Positions 13,366 through 29,623 of a DNA stretch of 54,713 bases are shown piece by piece. The notes under the pieces were generated by a model. It was given only the letters and a program-made list of their open reading frames with translations. It did no database searches and had not been told where the DNA came from. A program made the position numbers and the translations under genes. Source of the DNA: Halorhodospira neutriphila (GTDB lineage Bacteria > Pseudomonadota > Gammaproteobacteria > Nitrococcales > Halorhodospiraceae); contig NZ_NRSH01000001.1 of NCBI RefSeq assembly GCF_016584055.1, positions 1 to 54,713 on the forward strand. Reading direction: 5' to 3'. The first letter of the stretch is position 1. Every line of letters begins with the position of its first letter.

Positions 13366-15290
13366 CCCGAGTTCGGCAGTTCACTCTGTGAGTTGCCCTT
13401 CTCAGATGCTTTAACCGGCTGAGATTGCTTAGATAAGGCGAGGTGCGCCGGAGGCGTCCTGTTGTGACACGCACGTAGGACATGGCATCTTCATGTCATG
13501 CGTATTGAATTGTTAGTGTTGTGCTATGTTCGTGCGCGTGACCAAGTCCGGCCCCCGGCGTTACCTCCGCCTCGTCGAGGGCTACCGCGACACCGAGGGC
13601 AAGGTGAAGCAGCGGGTCGTCGCTAATCTCGGGCGGCTCGACCAGATCGGCGAGGAGGAAATCGATAGCCTCATCCGCAGCTTGCAGCGGGCTGTAGGCC
13701 GATCGGAGCCCGACCCGGAGACGCCGCAATTCGAGCGTGCCCGCGCCTACGGCGATCTCTGGGCCTTGCACCAGATCTGGCAGGAGCTGGGCCTGGATGA
13801 GGCCCTGCGCCGCGCGCTTCGCTCTTCCCGGCGTGCCTTCGATGCCGAGGGGCTGATCCGCGCCATGGTCTTTAATCGTCTGGCCGCACCGCGCAGCAAG
13901 CGTGGGGTCCTGGAGTGGCTGCAGGAGGATGTCCGGATCCCGGGGCTGCGGTCTGAGCAGCTTCGCCACGACCAGCTCCTGCGGGCCATGGACGCGCTGA
14001 TGAGCCACTCGGAGCGGGTCGAGCAGGCCATCGCCGCGCAGCTCAAGCCGCTGCTCGACCAGGATCTCAGCGTCGTGTTCTGGGATCTCACCACGGTGCG
14101 CATCCACGGGGATCGCGAGGTCGCTGGCGATCTGCGCCAGCACGGGATGAGCAAGGATACCGGCGGTATCAGCCGACAGTTCGCCCTCGGGGTCGTGCAG
14201 ACCGCCGACGGGCTACCCATCGCCCACGAGGTCTTCGAGGGCAACGTCGCCGAGACGCGCACGCTGGCGCCGATGCTCCGCCGGCTGCTGGATCGCTACC
14301 CGCTGAAGCGGGTCGTCGTAGTCGCCGATCGCGGCCTGCTCAGCCTCGACAACGTCGACACCCTGGAGGCCCTGGCCGAGCAGGAGGGGCTGGCCGTCGA
14401 CTATATCCTCGCCGTGCCGGGGCGACGCTACGCGGAATTCACGGACATCATGGCCGAGCTGCATCCGCAGCTCGCCGAGGCATCCGAGCAGACCGGGGCG
14501 GAGTCGGTCACCGAGACCGCCTGGCAGGGCCGGCGGCTTGTGGTGGCGCACAATCCGGAGCGCGCCGCCGAGCAGACCCGCGCCCGGCGGCGCAAGGTCG
14601 AGCGCCTTGAGCAGCTCGGCCAAGCCCTGGCGGAGCGGCTGGACAACCAGGACGCCGGCCGTCCGGGGCGCGGACGGCGCTCAACGGATCGCAGCGCCCA
14701 TCGGCGCTTCCACCAGATGGTGCTCCGCCAGCAGATGAGCAGCATCGTCCAGGCGGATCTCGGCGCCGAGACCTTCCGCTACGACATCGACGAGGCGGCC
14801 TGGGCGGCCGCCGAGCGCATGGACGGCAAGCTGCTGCTGGTCACGAGCCTGGAGGCCTACGAGCCGACCGAGATCACCGCGCGCTACCGGGCCCTGGCGG
14901 ATATCGAGCGCGGCTTCCGGGTACTGAAGAGCGATATCGAGATCGCCCCCGTTTACCACCGCCTGCCGGAACGGATCCGGGCCCATGCGCTGATCTGCTT
15001 CCTCGCCTTGGTCCTGCACCGGGTGCTGAGGCAGCGCCTCAAGGCTTCCGGCAGTGAGCACTCCCCGCAGCACGCACTGCGGGTCCTTCGTCGCGTTCAG
15101 CAGCATCGGGTCAAGATCGCAGGCCGGAGCTACGAGGGGGTGACTCGGCCCGATGGGGAGCAGCTCGAGCTGTTCCAGCAACTCGGCGTGGAGGTGCCTC
15201 AGAGCCCCGCTTGAGAGCCGTGTTGTGACAAATTGCGGGTTAGCGATACCCGCATATCAATAAGTTAGGCGCATAACTGCCGAACTCGGG
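13366..15290 (+). mobile_element. IS1634-family insertion sequence, complete (1925 bp)
   Basis: Bounded by a perfect 16-bp terminal inverted repeat, CCCGAGTTCGGCAGTT at 13366-13381 and its complement at 15275-15290. It is flanked by the 6-bp duplication AGAACC at 13360-13365 and 15291-15296. One intact transposase lies inside. The intact repeats and duplication indicate a recent insertion. Confidence 0.93.
13526..15214 (+). CDS. IS1634-family transposase
   Basis: A 562-residue DDE transposase starting MFVRVTKSGPRRYLRLVEGY with GKVKQRVVANLGRLDQI, typical of the family. Catalytic residues: first Asp in VVFWDLTTVRIHGD, second Asp in VVVVADRGLLSLDNVD, and Glu in YRALADIERGFRVLKSDIEI before APVYHRLPERIRAHALICFL. 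No frameshift or stop is seen, so it should be active. It lies alone inside the element. Confidence 0.93.
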   Translation: MFVRVTKSGPRRYLRLVEGYRDTEGKVKQRVVANLGRLDQIGEEEIDSLIRSLQRAVGRSEPDPETPQFERARAYGDLWALHQIWQELGLDEALRRALRSSRRAFDAEGLIRAMVFNRLAAPRSKRGVLEWLQEDVRIPGLRSEQLRHDQLLRAMDALMSHSERVEQAIAAQLKPLLDQDLSVVFWDLTTVRIHGDREVAGDLRQHGMSKDTGGISRQFALGVVQTADGLPIAHEVFEGNVAETRTLAPMLRRLLDRYPLKRVVVVADRGLLSLDNVDTLEALAEQEGLAVDYILAVPGRRYAEFTDIMAELHPQLAEASEQTGAESVTETAWQGRRLVVAHNPERAAEQTRARRRKVERLEQLGQALAERLDNQDAGRPGRGRRSTDRSAHRRFHQMVLRQQMSSIVQADLGAETFRYDIDEAAWAAAERMDGKLLLVTSLEAYEPTEITARYRALADIERGFRVLKSDIEIAPVYHRLPERIRAHALICFLALVLHRVLRQRLKASGSEHSPQHALRVLRRVQQHRVKIAGRSYEGVTRPDGEQLELFQQLGVEVPQSPA

Positions 15291-15296
15291 AGAACC

Positions 15297-16279
15297 AGGC
15301 GGTGCTCGACGAGGCGCTGCTCAAGCTCGTTGAGCAGCGCGTCCGCGCCCGCAGCCAAGGCGCTCGGACGCGGACGATGACCATCGACATCGATGGTGTC
15401 CCGCTGCAGGCCCACGGCCAGCAGCCCGGCAGCGCGTTCAATGGGCACACTGGGCAGCGCCAGCATGACCCGCTGTTCGCCCTCTGCGCCGAGACCGGCG
15501 ACCTGATCGGGGTGCTGCTGCGCCCGGGCAACGCCGGGCCGGCGAGCCAGGCGGCGGCGTGGATCCCGAAGCTGGTCGAGTACCTGCGTGCGCACGTTGC
15601 CCGCCAGGTGCGGGTCCGGCTGGACGCGGGCTTCGCGGATGCCGCCACGCTCGCCGCCCTGGATGCGCACGGCATCGGCTACATCGCCCGGCTGCCACGC
15701 AACGCGGCGCTCGAGCGCCGCTTCGAGCCGCACCGCTACCGCCGGGGACGCCCCGCCAAGCGGGAACGGGAGTGGACCGAGGCGTTCGCGTACCAGGCGG
15801 GCACCTGGGAGCGGCCCCGCCGCGTGGTCATGGTCATCCGTGAGCGCCCGGGCGAGCTCTTCCGGGACGCGTTCTACCTGGTCACCAATATCCAGGGCAG
15901 CCAGCGCTTCGTCCGGCGCCACTACCAGCAGCGCGGTAAGGCCGAGGCGCACTTCGGTGAGTATAAAGACGTCATGGGCGAGTCCCTGCCCTGCACCCGC
16001 CGAGGCCGAGCGACGGAGGCGCAGGCGTTCGCCCGCAGCCAGGCGCTGCTCACCCTCCGGGCGCTCGCCTACCAGCTCCTCCATGTGCTGCGCGACAGCC
16101 TGGAGCGCGGCACCGGCGACGGCTGGAGCCTGCGCCGGCTGCGCGAGCAGGTGCTCAAGAGCGCGGTGCGCGTCCAGCGCCATGCCCGGCGGCTACACGT
16201 CATCCTGGAGCGGCGGGCCGCCTCCCACTGGCGCGCCTTGCTCCGGCGCCTGCCCAGGGTCTACCCGGCCCCTGGATAG
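15297..16279 (+). pseudogene. IS1380-family transposase, 3' part with the DDE core
   Basis: Resumes in frame with AGGCGGTGCTCGAC (QAVLDEALLKLVEQ) after the second AGAACC. Catalytic Asp residues are in MTIDIDGVPLQAHG and VRVRLDAGFADAATL; the Glu is in QQRGKAEAHFGEYKD. The C-terminus LHVILERRAASHWRALLRRL is typical. Precise loss of 13366-15296 would regenerate DEQN-QAVLDE and a full-length protein of about 450 residues. Confidence 0.88.
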
Positions 16280-16560: not shown

Positions 16561-17976
16561 TTATTTTGTTCTGCTATGTCTTTCTTCAATCGTTTGAAGA
16601 ATATTTTCGGACGGGGTGGCGTAAAAGCCACGCGGGCTTTTTAGTGGTATATCGTCAATAATTTTCGAGAGTTCTTCTCCGTTTTTTACTTTTGTGATGT
16701 TGTCTTTATTATTGGAATCATTGAAGTATCCTGGGTTTTTTGGGTTATCGATAATTACAGCACGGCATCCGGCAAGGAGTGATTCAATTAATGCAGTTGA
16801 GCTAAGCCCTAAGGCGACCGATGAAGTTATTAGATGTTTTTCTAATTTTGTGTTTTTTTCAATGCGCCAGTTTTTTTCGCAAGTTCTTTCCTTCATTTTT
16901 TTGTGTAGCAAGGAACTATTTTCTTTGGGGTGTGGGCGTATTATGATTTCCCAGTCTGGCCTTTTTTGGGAAAAATCTGACGCAACCTCTATAATAATTG
17001 AAGTGAACAACGGTTGCGATAAAATAAGGAGTTGCTTGGGTCTTTTTAGGTGTGTTTCGTTTTGTTCGGCTATTGACTCCTCGAGTCGTTTATACCCTAC
17101 TATATGAACTTTGCAAGCTCTTGGAAAGCTGACGTGTTTGAACCACTCTGGGCCAAAAGCTAAAAACTCATCCGGAAAATAAGGAACATGACTCCAGTCG
17201 CTATAGTCGTAACCAAGGTGGCCGCGCCCAAAAGCGCCGTGTTGAAATTCAATTGTTTTTATATCTAGCTCTTTAGCTGCTGCTATCAGTTCCTCTAGTC
17301 CGTATGAGCAACCTGTATATAAATACTCTGGTTTTGCTCGATCCAAAAAAGCGGAGTATATGTATTTATTTCCTTTGAAGTTCTTTACTGTGTTATATAC
17401 CAAATTTTCGAGCTGTTGATAGGATTTTGTGTTGCCAATAAAAATTTTTTCTTCAATTCCTTTTATTTTTTGTTTGTCTTTTTTTGTTAATCTAACTTGC
17501 ATCGTAGTGCCTAAGATAGATCCTAGTAGTCTGAGCGCAGTAAGTGAAGGGGGGCCATAGAATGAGTTTGGTTTGTCAAGAGAGTTCTTTTCCAAGATTA
17601 ATGATTTTTCTTTCTGTGAAGGATCCCATAACTGAGAAGCGATTGGGTGAATTTTTTCTCCCTTGTGGCTTGTTTTTCGAATTCCTGATATGATAATACG
17701 TTTAGTTTTAGATTTCTTGAAAAAAAAGGGGTTTCTAAATGATAACAATTTCCATGATTCTGTGTATTTTCTTATTTTTGAAGATTTGGGGAGTTCTTGA
17801 TTTATGTTTTTTAATAGATCTAGTTGGTCACGGTATTCATTGAATAAGTTAAAGCGCAGAACTTTCCATATGTGAATGCCTTCAATTTTCCAGTCTGGCA
17901 GACTTAGTTCTTTTTCTATTTTTTCAAATTCTTGTAAAGATTCTTGAAAGTTAGTTGGTAAAGAAGAGTGAGTCAT
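16561..17976 (-). CDS. GT-B type surface polysaccharide transferase, AT-rich
   Basis: A 471-residue protein without membrane segments. The C-terminal half has IEFQHGAFGRGH, a probable nucleotide-sugar site loop; KQLLILSQPLFTSIIIEVAS; WEIIIRPHPKENSSLL with the RPHPKE motif of capsule/teichoic-type and sialyltransferase-like transferases; and VALGLSSTALIESLLAGCRA, the Ser-Ser/Glu acceptor-side motif of GT-B enzymes. It is last in the pse run, overlapping pseI by four bases, so it may transfer the CMP-nonulosonate made upstream. Its stop lies 20 bases from the IS1380 right end. Much more AT-rich than pseI, so likely acquired separately. Confidence 0.65.
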   Translation of the reverse strand: MTHSSLPTNFQESLQEFEKIEKELSLPDWKIEGIHIWKVLRFNLFNEYRDQLDLLKNINQELPKSSKIRKYTESWKLLSFRNPFFFKKSKTKRIIISGIRKTSHKGEKIHPIASQLWDPSQKEKSLILEKNSLDKPNSFYGPPSLTALRLLGSILGTTMQVRLTKKDKQKIKGIEEKIFIGNTKSYQQLENLVYNTVKNFKGNKYIYSAFLDRAKPEYLYTGCSYGLEELIAAAKELDIKTIEFQHGAFGRGHLGYDYSDWSHVPYFPDEFLAFGPEWFKHVSFPRACKVHIVGYKRLEESIAEQNETHLKRPKQLLILSQPLFTSIIIEVASDFSQKRPDWEIIIRPHPKENSSLLHKKMKERTCEKNWRIEKNTKLEKHLITSSVALGLSSTALIESLLAGCRAVIIDNPKNPGYFNDSNNKDNITKVKNGEELSKIIDDIPLKSPRGFYATPSENILQTIEERHSRTK

Positions 17977-19058
17977 ATTTTGTCTCTATTTGTAGGCGAT
18001 TGTATTAATTGAATTTTGACGGGGGATCCGAAATCTATATTAGCGATTGCATAGGCACCCAATAGAGCTTCATAGTATTTTGGCTCCAACCCATACCCCG
18101 GCCGCACCGATTTCACATTCTCCGACGTAAAAACCTCTCCGGCCTTCATGTCTTTCGCCACGTACAATGACCGTCGTAATGGCCGCTGCGTTGCCTCACT
18201 CTCCCGCGGCCCCTCGCGCACGCAGCCCAGCGCTTGCCAAGCAGTACGCGTCTGCTCCACCAGATCGCGCAACTCCTCCGGCTCCAACGAGAATGCCGCA
18301 TCAGGCCCGCCATCGGCGCGGCGCATGGTGACGTGCTTCTCGATCACGCAGGCACCCAGCGCGGTGGCCGCCACCGGCACGGCCATCTCCAGGGTGTGGT
18401 CGGAAAGGCCCGGCACCACGCCGTAGCGTTCGCCGAGGACGGGGAGGGTGCGCAGGTCCGCCTCCTCGGGTGGAGTGGGATAGCCGGAGGTGCAGTGGAG
18501 CAAGCAGATCTCCTCGCAGCCGGCACGGCGGGCGGTAGCCACGGCCTCCATCACCTCGGTGCGGGTTGCCATCCCCGTGGACATGATCAGGGGGCGCCCC
18601 TTGCTGGCGGCGTACTCGATCAGCGGCAGGTCGACGAGCTCGAAGGAGGCGATCTTGTAGGCGGCCGGCTCGAAGTCCTCGAGGAAGTCCACCGCCGTTG
18701 CGTCGAAGGGCGAGGAGAAGACTGTCAGTCCGCGCTCACGGCCACGCTGAAAGAGCGCCTCGTGCCACTCCCACGGCGTGTGCGCCCATTCGTAGAGCTC
18801 ATAGAGGCTGCGGCCGGCCCACGGGCCTTCAGTGAGCTGGAAGTCCGGCCGGTCGGAGTCGAGGGTCATGGTGTCGGCGGTGTACGTCTGGAGCTTCACC
18901 GCATCGGCGCCGGTCTCGGCGATGGCGTCGATGATGGCCAGCGCCTGCTCCAGGCTGCCGTTATGGTTCGCTGACAGCTCAGCGATGATGTAGGGCGGAT
19001 GGCCCGAGCCGATGGGCCGGCCCTCGAGCTCGAAATGGGGTGATGCGGTCTGGGTCAT
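17973..19058 (-). CDS. pseI: Pseudaminic acid synthase
   Basis: Condenses 2,4-diacetamido-2,4,6-trideoxy-L-altrose with phosphoenolpyruvate to make pseudaminic acid. 361 residues: NeuB TIM-barrel with YIIAELSANHNGSLEQAL (about 23-40), ADAVKLQTYTADTMTLD, TVFSSPFDATAVDFLE, IMSTGMATRTEVMEAV and IEKHVTMRRADGGPDAAFSL with metal/PEP residues. A C-terminal antifreeze-like SAF domain (LRRSLYVAKDMKAGEVFTSENVKSVR) closes the other subunit's active site. The SANHNG and KLQTYTADT wording is PseI-type rather than NeuB-type. The last 30 or so codons become AT-rich, as in the downstream transferase, marking a recombination joint inside the gene. Confidence 0.9.
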   Translation of the reverse strand: MTQTASPHFELEGRPIGSGHPPYIIAELSANHNGSLEQALAIIDAIAETGADAVKLQTYTADTMTLDSDRPDFQLTEGPWAGRSLYELYEWAHTPWEWHEALFQRGRERGLTVFSSPFDATAVDFLEDFEPAAYKIASFELVDLPLIEYAASKGRPLIMSTGMATRTEVMEAVATARRAGCEEICLLHCTSGYPTPPEEADLRTLPVLGERYGVVPGLSDHTLEMAVPVAATALGACVIEKHVTMRRADGGPDAAFSLEPEELRDLVEQTRTAWQALGCVREGPRESEATQRPLRRSLYVAKDMKAGEVFTSENVKSVRPGYGLEPKYYEALLGAYAIANIDFGSPVKIQLIQSPTNRDKI

Positions 19059-19065
19059 GGGCCCG

Positions 19066-20127
19066 CTACCTTGCTGATGGGTCGTGGATCATGTATTGGG
19101 CGCCGTCTGCTAGTTCCGCGACCGTGCGGAAGCCGAGGCGCTCGAAGAAGTTTGGTATGCGCGTCGTCAGGCTGATGACGCCGGGGTTGTCGGCGAGCAG
19201 GGTCTCGACGAGCCGCTCGCCAAGCCCGATCCCGCGGCAATCCGGGTCGACGGCCAGGCTCTCCAGGTGCCCACCCTTGCTGTGCCGCGCGCAGTAGACC
19301 GTGCCGACGATGGCGTCATCCTGTTCCACGGTGTAGAGCGGATCGCCGGGCCGGTAGAGCGCGCACATCCGGTCGAAGACGTCGCGCGGCGGCTTGGGGT
19401 AGCAGCGGTCGAGCAAGGCCTTAAGACCCCCCCCGTTGTGTGGGATATGGTGCTGCCGGTAGATGGTAAACGTCCCGACGAGCCGATCCGATTCCATCTG
19501 GACCCGGGAAAGCTCCATCCGGTGCCCATGCACGTCGAGGAAGGCGCGCGGGTACCCCTCGGCGTCGAGCATGCGGATGAAGTCGAAGAAGTCGTTGAGG
19601 TCTTGGACCGATGCCTCGGCCAAGTCGCTCTCCTCCGGCTTGCGGCGCCGGAAGACCACCGGCTCTCCCTCCTGGGGGTGCGGCTCGGGCTCATCCTGGA
19701 TGATGGCCTCGATCATCGCCTCGATCTCACTGGCTGCCCGCAGGAAGATCTCCGAGGCGGACCCTTCCAGGCAGAGTGGGCGCTTGAGGTAGACGGGCCC
19801 GGCGTCCATCTCCTGCACGCAGCGCAGCGCCGTGAGCTTCGTCTCGTGGTGACCGCGCTGGATCAGGTTCTGCAGCGGGCTTCCGCCGCGCCCGTAGGGC
19901 AGGTCGGTCATGTGGAAGATGACGCACTCGTAGGCTTGGTGAATCGTCTCCGGCACGAGGTACGACCAGTGCGGGAAGAAGACGTAGCGCGGTCCGATCT
20001 GTTCCAGGCGCTCGGGCGTGAGCTCCTCCTTCCGCGTGATGAGGTGGAACGTATGCCCGGTCCGCTCGGCCAGGCGCTGGGCCATGACCTCGTTCCACGG
20101 GCGGGAGGTGGCGATGACGTAATCCAT
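19066..20127 (-). CDS. Formyltransferase-GNAT acetyltransferase fusion
   Basis: 353 residues. The first about 200 are a Fmt/PurN-like formyltransferase: FFPHWSYLVPE, HMTDLPYGRGGSPLQNLIQR (variant of the SLLP-type motif with the catalytic Asp-Leu-Pro), and MDAGPVYLKRPLCLEGSASE. From about 215 a GNAT domain follows, with HLESLAVDPDCRGIGLGERL, whose Q/RxxGxG/A acetyl-CoA loop is RGIGLG, and FFERLGFRTVAEL. A G8 run (19427-19434 on the plus strand as C8) lies in the linker between domains. Likely modifies an amino-sugar intermediate with formyl or acetyl groups. It sits twelve bases after the second formyltransferase. Confidence 0.78.
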   Translation of the reverse strand: MDYVIATSRPWNEVMAQRLAERTGHTFHLITRKEELTPERLEQIGPRYVFFPHWSYLVPETIHQAYECVIFHMTDLPYGRGGSPLQNLIQRGHHETKLTALRCVQEMDAGPVYLKRPLCLEGSASEIFLRAASEIEAMIEAIIQDEPEPHPQEGEPVVFRRRKPEESDLAEASVQDLNDFFDFIRMLDAEGYPRAFLDVHGHRMELSRVQMESDRLVGTFTIYRQHHIPHNGGGLKALLDRCYPKPPRDVFDRMCALYRPGDPLYTVEQDDAIVGTVYCARHSKGGHLESLAVDPDCRGIGLGERLVETLLADNPGVISLTTRIPNFFERLGFRTVAELADGAQYMIHDPSAR

Positions 20128-20139
20128 GGGGCTCTCTGC

Positions 20140-20805
20140 TCAGGCGTGAGCGCCCTGCGCCTTGGTGATCCGCAAGATGTACCGCTGGCCGCGCCAGTCG
20201 AAGAAGACGGGATAGCGCTCGTTGTCGACGACCCGCAGCAGCTCGAACTGCTCGGCAAGGCTGCGCTGCGGATCGAGGCGGCTATCCTCGGGCCGCCGGC
20301 GCGGGTAGAAGCTCTCCTCGCCGCTTTGCTCGTGTCCCTGCGCGGCGCTGGCGGGGAAATCGTCGACAAATGCGCGGCAGAGCGTCCGTGTGGCCTCGGC
20401 CTGGGCCCCGCGCAACTCCTCGATCAGCTCGTGGCCCTCGAAGGCGATCCAGCGCTGGTCGTAGATCGTGCCGCTATCCACCTGCTCGGCAGCCTCAAGG
20501 AGGGTGACGGGGATGCGGCTCTTGCCCTCTAGGATCTGCCAGGTCAGCGGCGACCAGCCCTTGCCGTGGGGCAGGTCGCTCTCGTGGACCACAAGCGTGT
20601 GGCGGTACTGGGCGCGCACGGCCTCGGGAAGGATGCGGCCGAAGCTGAGGCAGAAGCAGAAGTCCCCCGCCTGCGCCTCGCTCGGCTCGTGGGTCCACTG
20701 GACGCGGTGGGCCAGCTCCTCCCAGTCCTCGACCAGCTCCAGCAGGTGCTCGTTGATCCAGCTCCCCTCATCCGAGAGGATCACGATCCGCCGGGGGGGG
20801 GGCAT
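20140..20805 (-). CDS. Formyltransferase family protein with a C10 run at its start
   Basis: From ATG 20805 (MPPPRRIVILSDEGSW) 221 residues. FCFCLSFGRILPEAVRAQYR and LVVHESDLPHGKGWSPLTWQ match the formyltransferase fold; HESDLPHGKG holds the expected His-Ser/Asp-Leu-Pro active-site segment and LLEAAEQVDSGTIYDQRWI the following strand. It uses 10-formyl-THF by family analogy. The acceptor is unknown but the pse context suggests an amino-sugar. The start lies inside pseH (38-base overlap) and codons 2-5 are formed by ten consecutive C, so a one-base slip gives a stop within a few codons (nine C gives MPPPGGS-stop). Confidence 0.75.
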   Translation of the reverse strand: MPPPRRIVILSDEGSWINEHLLELVEDWEELAHRVQWTHEPSEAQAGDFCFCLSFGRILPEAVRAQYRHTLVVHESDLPHGKGWSPLTWQILEGKSRIPVTLLEAAEQVDSGTIYDQRWIAFEGHELIEELRGAQAEATRTLCRAFVDDFPASAAQGHEQSGEESFYPRRRPEDSRLDPQRSLAEQFELLRVVDNERYPVFFDWRGQRYILRITKAQGAHA

Positions 20806-21373: not shown

Positions 21374-22468
21374 CTATTCGGTCTTTTCAGGCGCCATCAG
21401 GTAGTTGGCAGCACGTTCCGTCCCAGCGCCATCAACAGTCCGCTTGCTCGCCTCGGCGAGCCTCTGTAGGTGCTCAGGCCGCTGGCGAAGGCTGTGGAGT
21501 GTTGCCGCTAGATCGGCGGCGCTCACCTCGTGGCCGTTGCCCACCCACTCGATGACCCCGTCGTCGGCCATGGCTTCGCAAGCCGGCCGCTGGTTGTCGG
21601 CGATGCTCACCACCAGGCTCGGCAGCCCTAGGCAACAGCGCTCCCAGGTGGTGGTACCGCCGGCCCCGATGGCCAGGTCGGCGGCGGCCATCAGGTCGCC
21701 GAGGTGGGGGCGCGGGGCGTGGAGCGTGGTGCCTGGGCGCGCCTCGGCTTGGGCCGCTAGCGCCTCGCGGTGCGGGTTATTGGGGCCGACCACCACATCG
21801 ATGGCCACACCACGGAAGGCCGGTTCGCTCAAGGCCTCCAACGCGCGGCCGGTGAGGTTGTCCGGATCGGTGCCGCCGAAGAAGACGAAGACCCGCTCGA
21901 GGCGGCCGCTGTGTGGCCCTAAGGCGTTGCGGTACTGCGCGTACTCCGGCCGCAAGAGGGCGTAATCCGGACCTAGCAGGCGTGTGGCGTGTGGCGGTAG
22001 TCGATCGCGGTAGCGGGCCTCGGCATCCCGGCTGTAGTTCTGGTCGAGCAGGGCGTCGCAGTCGTGGTCGCGGTTGGCCAGGTCATCAATCGCCAGGATG
22101 CGCTCGACATGGGGCCGCAGTCGGCGTTCCCACTCGGCGTCGAGACCGTAGTGATCTACTACCAGCCAATCGGGTTGGTCGGGCAGGGCGGCGATGGTCT
22201 CCTCGGCATCCTGGGGCTGGGATACACCGAGCCACCGTGCGTAGTTCTCATCCTCGGCCGAAGGCGTGTCGGCCACGTCCGGCGCGGGCAAGCTGCAGAC
22301 GGCGAAACCCTCGTCTCGCAGCATCGCCATGCCGTGGCCCTCGTGGGCGCGGCAGATGAACGTCACGGCCGCCCCGTGCTTGCGTAGCGCCTGCGCCAGC
22401 GTTCGGCAGCGGATGAGGTGCCCGGTGCCGGCGGCCGCCGACGCATCAACGCGGATGGCGACTCTCAT
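21374..22468 (-). CDS. pseG: UDP-2,4-diacetamido-2,4,6-trideoxy-beta-L-altropyranose hydrolase
   Basis: Removes UDP from the PseH product. 364 residues with GT-B fold. MRVAIRVDASAAAGTGHLIR carries the catalytic His17 in GTGH. LAIDDLANRDHDCDALLDQN, RVFVFFGGTDPDNLTGRAL and AIGAGGTTTWERCCLGLPSL (UDP-binding with Glu) are PseG hallmarks. The pseG start overlaps the deacetylase stop (ATGA). High GC as expected for core island genes. Confidence 0.92.
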   Translation of the reverse strand: MRVAIRVDASAAAGTGHLIRCRTLAQALRKHGAAVTFICRAHEGHGMAMLRDEGFAVCSLPAPDVADTPSAEDENYARWLGVSQPQDAEETIAALPDQPDWLVVDHYGLDAEWERRLRPHVERILAIDDLANRDHDCDALLDQNYSRDAEARYRDRLPPHATRLLGPDYALLRPEYAQYRNALGPHSGRLERVFVFFGGTDPDNLTGRALEALSEPAFRGVAIDVVVGPNNPHREALAAQAEARPGTTLHAPRPHLGDLMAAADLAIGAGGTTTWERCCLGLPSLVVSIADNQRPACEAMADDGVIEWVGNGHEVSAADLAATLHSLRQRPEHLQRLAEASKRTVDGAGTERAANYLMAPEKTE

Positions 22469-23157
22469 CGGAGGTGGCGAGCCAGGAAGAAGGCCTCAGC
22501 GGCTTCGCAGCCGACGGTCGCGCCCCGCCAGCGCGCCAGGTGCTCGACCGCCTCGCGGGAGCGCGGATGCGGCCAATCGCGCATCTCCGCGGCGTAGGCG
22601 TCTAGTGCCTCGAGCTTGCGGGGCAGGGTGGTGCTGATGTCCTCGAACCAGTTCGGCGTGAACGGCACGCCGGAGCCCGGCGGCTGCCACTCGGTGCTCG
22701 AGGCCACCTCAAAGCAGAGGATGGTCCGTACCGGATGGCCAAGCTGCGGACGGCACGCCGTCATTACCGCCTGATGGACGCGACGGTGGTCGATGTTCAG
22801 GTCGCCGGCGTGGTGCGTCACTACCGTATCCGGACGGTAGGTTTCGATCAGTGCTTCGACGCGCTGAGTGATCTGCAATAGCGGGATGGTATCGAGCTGG
22901 TTATCCGGTAGGTCATCGTACTGTACGGAGCTAGCTCCAAGAATCCGCGCCGCCGCCTCCGCAGCCGAGTGGCGCTGCTCTAGCGCCTTGTGCTCGGCAT
23001 CGGAATCGGGGTTGCGAGAGCCGATGCCGTCGGCCAGGAAGGCGAGGTGAACGGCAACGCCTTGATCGGACCAGCGGGCGATGGTGCCGCCGCAGCCTAG
23101 AGCCTCGTCGTCGGGGTGAGCGGCGATGAAAAGTTTTGAAATTTCTTGATAAGCCAT
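22465..23157 (-). CDS. PIG-L/LmbE-family deacetylase
   Basis: 230 residues with the zinc motif AHPDDEALGCGG (about 13-24), DDLPDNQLDTIPLLQI and VVTHHAGDLNIDHRRVHQAV, where H-x-x-D/H residues complete the metal site. The family removes N-acetyl groups from GlcNAc-like sugars. Together with the formyltransferases downstream this suggests de-N-acetylation then N-reacylation of an amino-sugar. The start codon shares a base with the NeuB-like stop (TGATG). GC-rich relative to the genes before it. Confidence 0.85.
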   Translation of the reverse strand: MAYQEISKLFIAAHPDDEALGCGGTIARWSDQGVAVHLAFLADGIGSRNPDSDAEHKALEQRHSAAEAAARILGASSVQYDDLPDNQLDTIPLLQITQRVEALIETYRPDTVVTHHAGDLNIDHRRVHQAVMTACRPQLGHPVRTILCFEVASSTEWQPPGSGVPFTPNWFEDISTTLPRKLEALDAYAAEMRDWPHPRSREAVEHLARWRGATVGCEAAEAFFLARHLR

Positions 23158-24134
23158 CAGCTTAGAACGTCTCCTACCTCATAACAGCGATCTGCATGAG
23201 AGAAAGGCAAAGTAAACGTGAGTTCCGCTGACTTATTCGGGCTTTTATGAATCCACATGTATTTAGCGTTATCAAAGTTTATATAATCGCCCTGCGCTAT
23301 CGGTTTGACCGCCACAAGCTTGAGCCGCCGCTCTCGATAGGTGTTTTCTTCTCTGGAAAGCGCATACTTTTCGGTTGTCCCTAAAGCGGCTTCGGTTTTA
23401 CGGACTAGAGATATGATCCTATCTAGCTCAGAACATTCGACCGCACTTTCACAGTCTATCCTTTCCTCTTCTCTTTGTAATATAATATGTTTCTCTAGCA
23501 TTGAAATTCCAAGGGCTACGGAAGCCGAGTATATAAAATCAGCATTTTCGGAATGATGGGTGTGGTCAGCATAACCAATTGGTAAACTGAATTTTTGCTG
23601 TAGCTGGCGGATTCGGTTAAGGCCGATATCTTCTGACTGGGTAGGAAATGACTGAAAACCAAGCATGAGAGTGACTGATGTGTTTTTAAGACTAGAATAT
23701 TTTTTGACCGCAAATTGAATTTCTTCAAGTGTGTAGCCTGATATCGCAAGAACGAGATCGAGCGGATTTTTATGCGATGCTAGGCAATCATAAAAATCTC
23801 GCCTGAAAAGATTTACAGCGTGTATTTCAATAATGTCTGCTATTTGCTCTTCAAGCACCCATTTTAAAGCTTGCCAGTCCAAAGGGAGAACGAGCAAGCT
23901 TTTTCCAGAAGCCTTTACTTTTTGGAATTGATTTTTCCAAAAGTCCTTATCAAAGGTTAAGGATTCGGCCTTACTTGCCATTGGATGGCTGTCAGCGTAT
24001 TCTAAAGATATTAATACTTGAAATTTGACGATATCGACATCGGTCTCAAGTGCTGATTCTACTAGCCTTTCAAGGTATTCGGAGTTACCCTCATGGGTGA
24101 ATGCTGTTTCTGCGATCGTTTTAATTTTGTCCAT
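23157..24134 (-). CDS. Second NeuB-like sugar-acid synthase, divergent
   Basis: 325 residues: IKTIAETAFTHEGNSEYLER, DVDIVKFQVL, LVLPLDWQALKWVLEEQIAD, LMLGFQSFPTQSEDIGLNRI, PIGYADHTHHSEN and ISMLEKHIIL correspond in order to the NeuB barrel motifs (AE...H.G, K.Q, G...YPT, G.SDHT, EKH). The C-terminal VKPIAQGDYINFDNAKYMW is a short SAF-like segment. Several residues differ from PseI (H-E-G for N-H-N-G), so a different aldose substrate is likely. AT-rich and overlapping the cytidylyltransferase by 14 bases. Confidence 0.75.
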   Translation of the reverse strand: MDKIKTIAETAFTHEGNSEYLERLVESALETDVDIVKFQVLISLEYADSHPMASKAESLTFDKDFWKNQFQKVKASGKSLLVLPLDWQALKWVLEEQIADIIEIHAVNLFRRDFYDCLASHKNPLDLVLAISGYTLEEIQFAVKKYSSLKNTSVTLMLGFQSFPTQSEDIGLNRIRQLQQKFSLPIGYADHTHHSENADFIYSASVALGISMLEKHIILQREEERIDCESAVECSELDRIISLVRKTEAALGTTEKYALSREENTYRERRLKLVAVKPIAQGDYINFDNAKYMWIHKSPNKSAELTFTLPFSHADRCYEVGDVLS

Positions 24135-24957
24135 TTACGTAATCCCGTTCTGTAAGGTTGATTATGAATTGGCTCTTGTTTTTTCTCGCTTCCATGTCCT
24201 TTTCAAATTCCAGCCATTTCATTTTTCCCTTAGGGGTATTTATGGGGGTGTCACCTTTTATGGATAAAAAGGGAATCGCTGATATCTTGTTTAGGTGCAG
24301 TATCTCATGAAGGTAAGGTTGGTTTTTTGGTGCAAGAGTGTCGTAAATATATTCTGTCCGCTTCCAATCTTCAGGTGTGTCTACAGTTAAAGTAGATCTT
24401 TTGGGGGTCCACTCAGAAATATCGATAACGAGCGTATTGTATAGACTGGGGTCAAAAAGAAAAAACATCAGGTACTCAGTTAAATATCGGGGAACCCGGG
24501 ATAAGCAGTCTTTTAATGCCTCCACCCTAATTACTTCTGGTGTTACGCCAAGAGGAGCACCTTCAACTCTTGCATAGTCTGCGCCTACCTCTTTTGATTT
24601 CTTGATTAATATGTCTAAAAGGTGTGGGTCGGTAAAAATGTTATCTCCAGTGACTCGAACGATGTAATCTGCACTTTCAATCGAGGCAATGTCTAGGAGT
24701 CGATCTATAACGGCGTCTTCGCTACCCTGATAGCAATTGATAGATTTAGCCTTAGCGATATCGCAAAGTATTTTGTCTTCTTGCGATACTGAGGTAGCAA
24801 TGTATATATTTTGTAAGTCCTGAGTCATGGCCAAGCGATCGATGATATGCTCTATCATGCTTTGCCCGTAGACAGATTTTAGGACTTTTTTAGGTAGCCT
24901 TGTTGATTTTGTCCTGGCTACAATACAGGTAATGGCTCGAATTGTAGAATTTACCAT
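24121..24957 (-). CDS. SpsF-like cytidylyltransferase
   Basis: ATG 24957 (MVNSTIRAITCIVARTKSTR) overlaps the SDR stop; a GTG nine bases earlier is possible. 278 residues. CIVARTKSTRLPKKVL is the CTP-binding loop of the CMP-sugar synthetase fold; DYIVRVTGDNIFTDPHLLDI gives the second nucleotide motif with GDN; TLTVDTPEDWKRTEYIYD is typical of the SpsF group. It is the only candidate in the island for activating a nonulosonic acid with CMP, since no standard PseF/NeuA is present. Substrate not known. Confidence 0.8.
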   Translation of the reverse strand: MVNSTIRAITCIVARTKSTRLPKKVLKSVYGQSMIEHIIDRLAMTQDLQNIYIATSVSQEDKILCDIAKAKSINCYQGSEDAVIDRLLDIASIESADYIVRVTGDNIFTDPHLLDILIKKSKEVGADYARVEGAPLGVTPEVIRVEALKDCLSRVPRYLTEYLMFFLFDPSLYNTLVIDISEWTPKRSTLTVDTPEDWKRTEYIYDTLAPKNQPYLHEILHLNKISAIPFLSIKGDTPINTPKGKMKWLEFEKDMEARKNKSQFIINLTERDYVNGQN

Positions 24958-25709
24958 ATTGTCCACCCCCCATCTGCAGCGATAATATGCCCAGTTACGG
25001 CGCTGCTTGCTTCTGATGTTAAAAACTCAACGGGACCCGGAATTTCAGAATCATTCAACATCCGCCCGTTCGGGACCATCTGGCCGTAACGCTCTTTGAA
25101 TTTTTCGTTGGTTCTCCCTTCGACACCGCCATACGCCACCGCATTAACCCGGATACCATCGGGCGCCATTCGTACAGCCATCTCGCGTGTTAAATGGTTA
25201 ATAGCGGCTTTCGCAGTACCGTATTGAATAGGTGACTGGTGATGCCGATCACCATGAACATTGGGATTGCCAGCGACAACGCCGTATTGCGAACTCACAT
25301 TAACAATTGTTTCAAGCTCTTCTGGTTGTTCTTTCCATAATGCAACCGACAACTCGTAAGGGACGACTACGTCCAAGAGGTACTCATTGATGAAGTCTTC
25401 TCGTTTGGTAGTGCCGTCTTCTTCTACTTTTAAAAAAGAGAGGCTTCGGGCGTTGTTAACCAAATGGTTAATTTTTATATCTCTGGTCCGTAGTTCGTCC
25501 GTCAACTGCTTAATGGAATCGGTTTTAGTGAAGTCGCATTGAATGCCTACACAACTGCGACCGCATTGGTTATTTTTTTCGAGTTCTTGAGCGCGTGCGG
25601 CCGAGGTGCTCGTAAAAACAACTTGCCATTCTTTTTCTAAAAAATGGCGTATATATTGTTTGCCGAATTTGCCTGTGCCCCCAGTTATGAGGATGGTAGG
25701 GAGTGTCAA
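24951..25709 (-). CDS. Short-chain dehydrogenase/reductase
   Basis: 252 residues with the NAD(P) loop [20 protein letters not shown] at the N-terminus, NHLVNNARSLSFLK (N-A-G-type), IVNVSSQYGVV with the catalytic Ser, and a catalytic Y-x-x-x-K in IQYGTAKAAINHL. Ends AVTGHIIAADGGWTIW as SDRs do. Related to the PtmA-type SDRs in flagellar glycan loci by context. Overlaps the following cytidylyltransferase and the preceding oxidoreductase gene, so it is part of one operon. Confidence 0.85.
   Translation of the reverse strand: MTLPTILITGGTGKFGKQYIRHFLEKEWQVVFTSTSAARAQELEKNNQCGRSCVGIQCDFTKTDSIKQLTDELRTRDIKINHLVNNARSLSFLKVEEDGTTKREDFINEYLLDVVVPYELSVALWKEQPEELETIVNVSSQYGVVAGNPNVHGDRHHQSPIQYGTAKAAINHLTREMAVRMAPDGIRVNAVAYGGVEGRTNEKFKERYGQMVPNGRMLNDSEIPGPVEFLTSEASSAVTGHIIAADGGWTIW

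Positions 25710-27464: not shown

Positions 27465-27477
<13 letters not shown>
26605..27477 (-). CDS. Aldo/keto reductase
   Basis: 290 residues. LALGTAQFGLDYGVANQRGK and VRVLDTAPAYGDSEKILGRL are the first strand and the catalytic Asp-Tyr segment; HALLFHRPLDI holds the catalytic His; VGLSIYSPTDLE and VQAPLNIFDRRLI follow the family order; GYINGLQDINQIVVGVDSAA forms the cofactor side. A C8 run on the coding strand (plus-strand G8 at 27252-27259) lies in codons for LPPLP. The start overlaps pseC by 13 bases. Role probably reduces a keto-sugar intermediate. Confidence 0.82.

Positions 27478-29623
<2,146 letters not shown>

Follow-up and report, generated by a model that had tools for sequence, protein, structure and literature searches.

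A slip-prone C tract at the junction of PseH and a formyltransferase, and a candidate switch for tethering two pseudaminic-acid enzymes

Results

The window, by which we mean the whole analyzed stretch of 54,713 nucleotides of the Halorhodospira neutriphila draft genome, carries a pseudaminic-acid gene cluster in which pseH and a gene for a formyltransferase (FT) meet at a run of ten C (Table 1). An earlier note on this DNA had placed the run at the start of the FT and the tail of pseH, and it does lie within both frames. The minus-strand letters 20805-20791 read ATG-CCC-CCC-CCC-CGG, the tract forming codons 2-4 and the first base of codon 5 of the FT when counted from this ATG. The ATG opens a 221-residue frame that ends at 20140, and the conserved domain of the FT starts right behind the tract, with most homologues aligning from residue 5-7. 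The pseH frame crosses the tract and ends soon after it at a TGA (20768-20770, minus strand). A GAGG directly abuts the ATG, which is poor spacing for a Shine-Dalgarno sequence, and neither promoter-like nor terminator-like sites were found near the junction.

Table 1. Coordinates of the junction tract and of the surrounding sugar genes in the window
Feature	Position	Strand	Basis
C10 homopolymer, proposed contingency tract at the pseH/FT junction	20793..20802	-	Sequence (plus strand G10)
ATG immediately 5' to the tract, at which the FT may start separately	20803..20805	-	ATA in L106
pseH, UDP-4-amino-4,6-dideoxy-AltNAc N-acetyltransferase, 201 aa	20768..21373	-	TIGR03585 138.9 bits, cut-off 93.1
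Formyltransferase (FT), PseJ-like, 221 aa if from ATG 20803-20805	20140..20805	-	Pfam Formyl_trans_N; PDB PseJ 6ci2/6ci4
pseG	21374..22468	-	TIGR03590 300.8 bits; stop codon abuts pseH ATG
Second formyltransferase with fused C-terminal GNAT domain	19066..20127	-	Profile matches
pseI, pseudaminic acid synthase	17973..19058	-	TIGR03586 491.5 bits
PIG-L deacetylase, same sugar cluster	22465..23157	-	Profile match
pseC aminotransferase	27465..28622	-	TIGR03588 575.4 bits

Relatives of the second formyltransferase accompany the FT, PIG-L and PseI in many FT loci, so that a pair of formyltransferases and a deacetylase move as a set. Beside the pse genes there is perhaps a second nonulosonic-acid pathway, with a further, divergent NeuB-like synthase (23157-24134) and, close by, a cytidylyltransferase (24121-24966) and an oxidoreductase. 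Two DDE transposase genes (13526-15214 and 15302-16279) adjoin the pseudaminic-acid cluster, the GC content around it swings from 36% to 70%, and the other genomes of the genus have neither a close PseH nor a close FT, all of which suggests that the cluster is an acquired island. The genus accordingly offers no near sister.

A frame table covering tract lengths C7 to C13 demonstrates that changing the number of repeat units alters both frame and product, as in phase-variable genes. At C10 the pseH frame stops soon after the tract and the FT is open from its own ATG only. At C9 or C12 the pseH frame runs on into the FT, giving a PseH-FT fusion of 410-411 residues. At C8 or C11 there is neither a fusion nor an ATG-started FT, and PseH keeps a short tail. 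The predictions made earlier for the frame from the FT ATG were right in that nine C gives MPPPGGS-stop and eleven C an early stop, after a 12-residue peptide. The accompanying claim that only ten C keeps the FT open was mistaken, as C9 and C12 place pseH and the FT in one frame.

The 2.39 Mb draft genome has runs of at least nine C or G at 6 sites and of at least ten at 3, this tract among them, making a C10 in a coding region unusual for the genome. The other long runs are located at a contig end, in a spacer following a tRNA gene, near a contig end and, as two short runs, in open reading frames. That C runs are overabundant throughout the genome was considered as an explanation and rejected on account of where these few others lie. 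The run at the contig end, one of the three of at least ten, is 16 bases long (L003, G000:C9:28992-29007); this G16 closes its contig and more likely marks where the assembly broke off than another switch. In the GC-rich window, C8 matches by themselves are not rarer than chance, and the case for the C10 tract therefore rests on comparison: it is the comparative enrichment of repeats, not the statistics of the window, that gives the tract its significance.

The closest relative, L106, belongs to a gammaproteobacterium of another order and has an FT 78% identical to that of the window. Here a C9 tract lies within an in-frame PseH-FT protein of 404 residues, the PseH domain of which scores 147.3 bits against TIGR03585 (cut-off 93.1), and the position of the window ATG is occupied by ATA. 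Since L106 is fused at C9 and has no ATG at this place, the locus probably began as a PseH-FT fusion, and the window ATG may be an incidental or secondary start. A GTG at residue 7 was considered as a tract-independent FT start and discarded, this codon being GCG in L106. No second PseH-FT copy was found in the order of L106.

We gathered relatives of the FT from genome contigs and whole genomes by FT similarity alone, not by the presence of repeats; the resulting set has one genome per species, and the species are mostly distant. In 19 distinct genomes, spanning Gammaproteobacteria, Cyanobacteriota, Actinomycetota and Methanomicrobiales, PseH or a PseH-like GNAT lies directly upstream of the FT and is often itself fused behind PseG, the latter fusion being present in most PseH-FT loci other than the window. 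A frame-shifting repeat is located in the short PseH-FT linker in 17 of the 19, and its position is kept among relatives though its length and unit vary, again as in phase-variable genes. The junction has poly-C of 7-11 in the window, L106, Baaleninema (L019), L121, L137, L125 and an Acidimicrobiaceae genome (L054), and poly-G of 8-12 in Methanospirillum (L024, L025, L114) and other Methanomicrobiales (L029, L115, L117, L135). Elsewhere it carries (CAAT)8 (Nodularia, L020), (AAAC)4 (Marithrix, L031) or three copies of a 13-mer (the cyanobacterium L122), so that the repeat unit at this spot differs between the sister cyanobacteria L020 and L122. The repeats of L114, L121 and L122 lie on long single contigs. 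The two exceptions among the 19 are L032, a fixed in-frame PseH-FT fusion without a repeat, and L118, a decayed locus with a broken FT.

In the linker preceding the FT of L115, a 13-mer (CATACCCGATGGA) is present three times directly before the G8, placing two frame-shifting repeats together. The broken FT of L118 and an internal TAA in that of L125 indicate that the formyltransferase is sometimes lost. In L023, L030, L034, L052, L070 and L123, PseG is fused in frame directly to the FT with neither PseH nor a repeat, which is another route to tethering the FT.

Under a strict rule (a homopolymer of at least 8, at least 4 tetranucleotides, or comparable), repeats are present at 16 of the 19 PseH-FT junctions as against 2 of 50 FT starts that lack PseH (p = 7e-11 in a Fisher test, a value that overstates the number of separate events because rows within a clade are not independent) and 14 of 1042 control tiles from the same loci. 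Likewise, C or G runs of at least 8 number 10 in 1,248 nt of junction and 3 in 71,980 nt elsewhere in these loci. About 4 changes along the FT tree are required to explain the PseH-FT arrangement, and strong branches force at least 2 of them. Plasmid and phage collections yielded no useful FT relative, FT relatives on viral contigs have neither PseH nor a repeat at the FT start, and no further PseH-FT members were found in Acidimicrobiia or in the order of Marithrix. The analogy with epsilonproteobacteria drawn in the earlier note is only partly apt, given that repeats occupy the same junction in cyanobacteria, an actinobacterium and methanogenic archaea.

The junction is in frame in 5 of the 17 repeat loci (L106, L019, L029, L115, L117) and out of frame in 12, with both possible offsets represented: offset 1 in the window, L024, L025, L054, L114 and L135, and offset 2 in L020, L031, L121, L122, L125 and L137. 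In five of the out-of-frame loci (L020, L122, L137, L031, L025) there is no ATG, GTG or TTG in the FT frame between the preceding stop codon and the domain, so that the FT there should arise only as a fusion. The FT is under purifying selection even where both genomes compared are out of frame (dN/dS 0.08-0.24, p 3e-4 to 1e-33, for the pairs L024/L114, L024/L025, L114/L025 and L020/L122). This is predicted by a reversible off state and not by a long-dead gene.

The GNATs of the window and L106 are above the PseH equivalog cut-off of 93.1 bits, and ten others in the same TIGR03585 scan fall below it; most of the middle domains beyond these two are thus PseH-like. The L137 GNAT, which lay outside the scan, is 37% identical to the window PseH over 162 residues. 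The window FT belongs to the Formyl_trans_N fold family (PF00551, 38.1 bits, cut-off 26.1) and matches PseJ in the PDB along the greater part of the N-terminal domain (E 5e-5 for the single sequence, 2.5e-8 for a profile), with ArnA, Fmt and 1ZGH scoring higher; the function assigned to PseJ here follows its PDB name. His73 and Asp109 of the FT are invariant in 15 sequences. The Asn-His-Asp triad of folate-dependent formyltransferases is incomplete, the Asn position of ArnA aligning with Val71 of the FT, and this column is Val in nearly all of the 15. Since the canonical catalytic Asn of Fmt and ArnA is Val in this family, formylation by the FT is not certain, and its acyl donor or mechanism may differ from the canonical one. 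Val71 alone does not exclude kinship with PseJ. Of the 24 FT loci with pseC, pseG and pseI all present, 21 have no pseH within the 3 kb flanks, and the FT probably takes the PseH step in these clusters as a PseJ-like N-formyltransferase.

Discussion

It is likely, in our judgment, that the C10 run is a phase-variation tract in the linker of an ancestral PseH-FT fusion, tethering and detaching the FT. Slipped-strand mispairing at replication would change the length of the tract. At C9 or C12, PseH and the FT would be translated as one bifunctional enzyme. At C10, the length in the present assembly, PseH would end soon past the tract, and a detached FT would be made at a low level or solely by initiation at the ATG ahead of the tract. 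At C8 or C11 there would be no FT, and PseH activity would be retained in every state. PseC makes the 4-amine that PseH acetylates. Because PseH acts on this amine and the FT probably replaces PseH in most related clusters, tethering where both enzymes are present would probably shift the product from acetyl towards formyl, and the group affected is probably the later position-7 group of pseudaminic acid, which would go from N-acetyl to N-formyl and so vary a surface glycan. The sequence data show the tract, its frames, the fusion in L106, the recurrence of frame-shifting repeats at the junction and the selection on out-of-frame FTs; that the tract slips in living cells, how each state is expressed, what chemistry results and what carries the glycan are our inferences.

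The proposal in the earlier note, that the tract toggles the formyltransferase and spares PseH, survives in its general form, since a slip-prone tract that varies the FT and leaves PseH intact is well supported by the comparison. The specific version, in which a stand-alone FT is read from the ATG at 20803-20805 and is on at C10 and off at C9 or C11, with fusion irrelevant, draws on the presence of the ATG and on the 221-residue frame that C10 holds open. We nevertheless think it unlikely. L106 has ATA and is fused, the GAGG is badly placed with respect to the ATG, the FT frame of five out-of-frame relatives offers no start codon, and C9 necessarily yields the fusion frame. The main switch is probably between fusion and detachment, even if the ATG would allow the FT to act as a gene of its own at C10. 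We hold programmed ribosomal or transcriptional slippage, in which a constant DNA of one tract length would give a fixed share of fusion, to be less probable still. C and G runs are able to promote frameshifting, and the net +1 shift needed in the window is possible on CCC-rich runs. However, the out-of-frame loci need differing shifts (offset 1 in six, offset 2 in six), five loci are already in frame, and the CAAT, AAAC and 13-mer repeats, which can slip in DNA, are not known to provoke frameshifting. Repeat-induced ribosomal frameshifting was likewise rejected as a general explanation, as the repeat units and the required shifts differ between loci.

Two further explanations seem to us very improbable, and to about the same degree. 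Were the FT being lost, with the C10 a plain frameshift and the tract lengths elsewhere drift, one could account for an in-frame share (5/17) near the random one third, for the decay of L118 and for the stop codon in the FT of L125. Such loss is difficult to reconcile with purifying selection in the out-of-frame pairs, with an FT that is full-length in nearly all loci, or with the concentration of many kinds of repeat at the PseH-FT junction. An assembly or sequencing miscount of a real C9 run is conceivable in a draft of 287 contigs, homopolymers of 10 being easily miscounted. Yet other genomes would still have repeats at this position, in L114, L121 and L122 on long single contigs, and a real C9 would just be the fused state.

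Tethering and detachment by a slipping linker may extend well beyond the window. We lean, if only somewhat, towards a general phenomenon of reversible domain-tethering, in which PseH or PseG-PseH alternates with PseH-FT or PseG-PseH-FT, which arose repeatedly with interchangeable repeats in bacteria and methanogenic archaea, and which switches acetyl and formyl on a surface nonulosonic acid. A single C run thereby becomes part of a recurrent pattern in which the same joint between enzymes has gained several kinds of slip-prone repeat in distant lineages, cultured methanogens and cyanobacteria included. The predicted phenotype in these environmental organisms is N-acetyl as against N-formyl pseudaminic acid on surface glycans, a difference that could affect recognition by phages or predators. 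More broadly, phase variation may set the physical coupling of two enzymes, beyond turning a gene on or off. Few phase-variable loci are known from methanogens and cyanobacteria. An open-access literature search, which is weak evidence of absence, found no account of a PseH-FT switch or of its cross-phylum pattern.

Among characterized proteins, the FT matches PseJ (PDB 6CI2, 6CI4, 6CI5, 6EDK) through most of the N-terminal domain, but distantly. Both the window and L106 have GNATs that exceed the PseH equivalog cut-off (TIGR03585) by a wide margin; the window PseH differs in a C-terminal extension that ends in the slippery tract, and that of L106 in being fused to the FT. Phase-variable homopolymers are well known. 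The simple-sequence contingency loci of Campylobacter, Helicobacter and Neisseria likewise have a repeat in a coding region, the length of which shifts the frame, and surface-glycan targets. In contrast to these, the PseH-FT repeat lies at the joint of two enzyme domains and determines whether they are joined, and it occurs in cyanobacteria, an actinobacterium, gammaproteobacteria and methanogenic archaea. The phase-variable genes listed for Campylobacter fetus include one with a G(9-10) tract for a "Formyltransferase domain-containing protein" (PMC6321876), and in Helicobacter canadensis the formyltransferase gene HCAN_0643 ends in a G11 of its own rather than having it where PseH adjoins (PMC2823697). 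The closest parallel in arrangement is H. canadensis HCAN_0660/0661, where a frame change at a poly-G near the 3' end would merge one coding sequence with the next, and Snyder et al. (2010; PMC2823697) call such separate-versus-joined products "perhaps unprecedented". As at the PseH-FT junction, a repeat near the 3' end of the first coding sequence could join two proteins. Those of HCAN_0660/0661 are hypothetical proteins of one species, whereas the PseH-FT repeat links two annotated families of pseudaminic-acid enzymes and, with varying repeat units, recurs at this one junction across four phyla.
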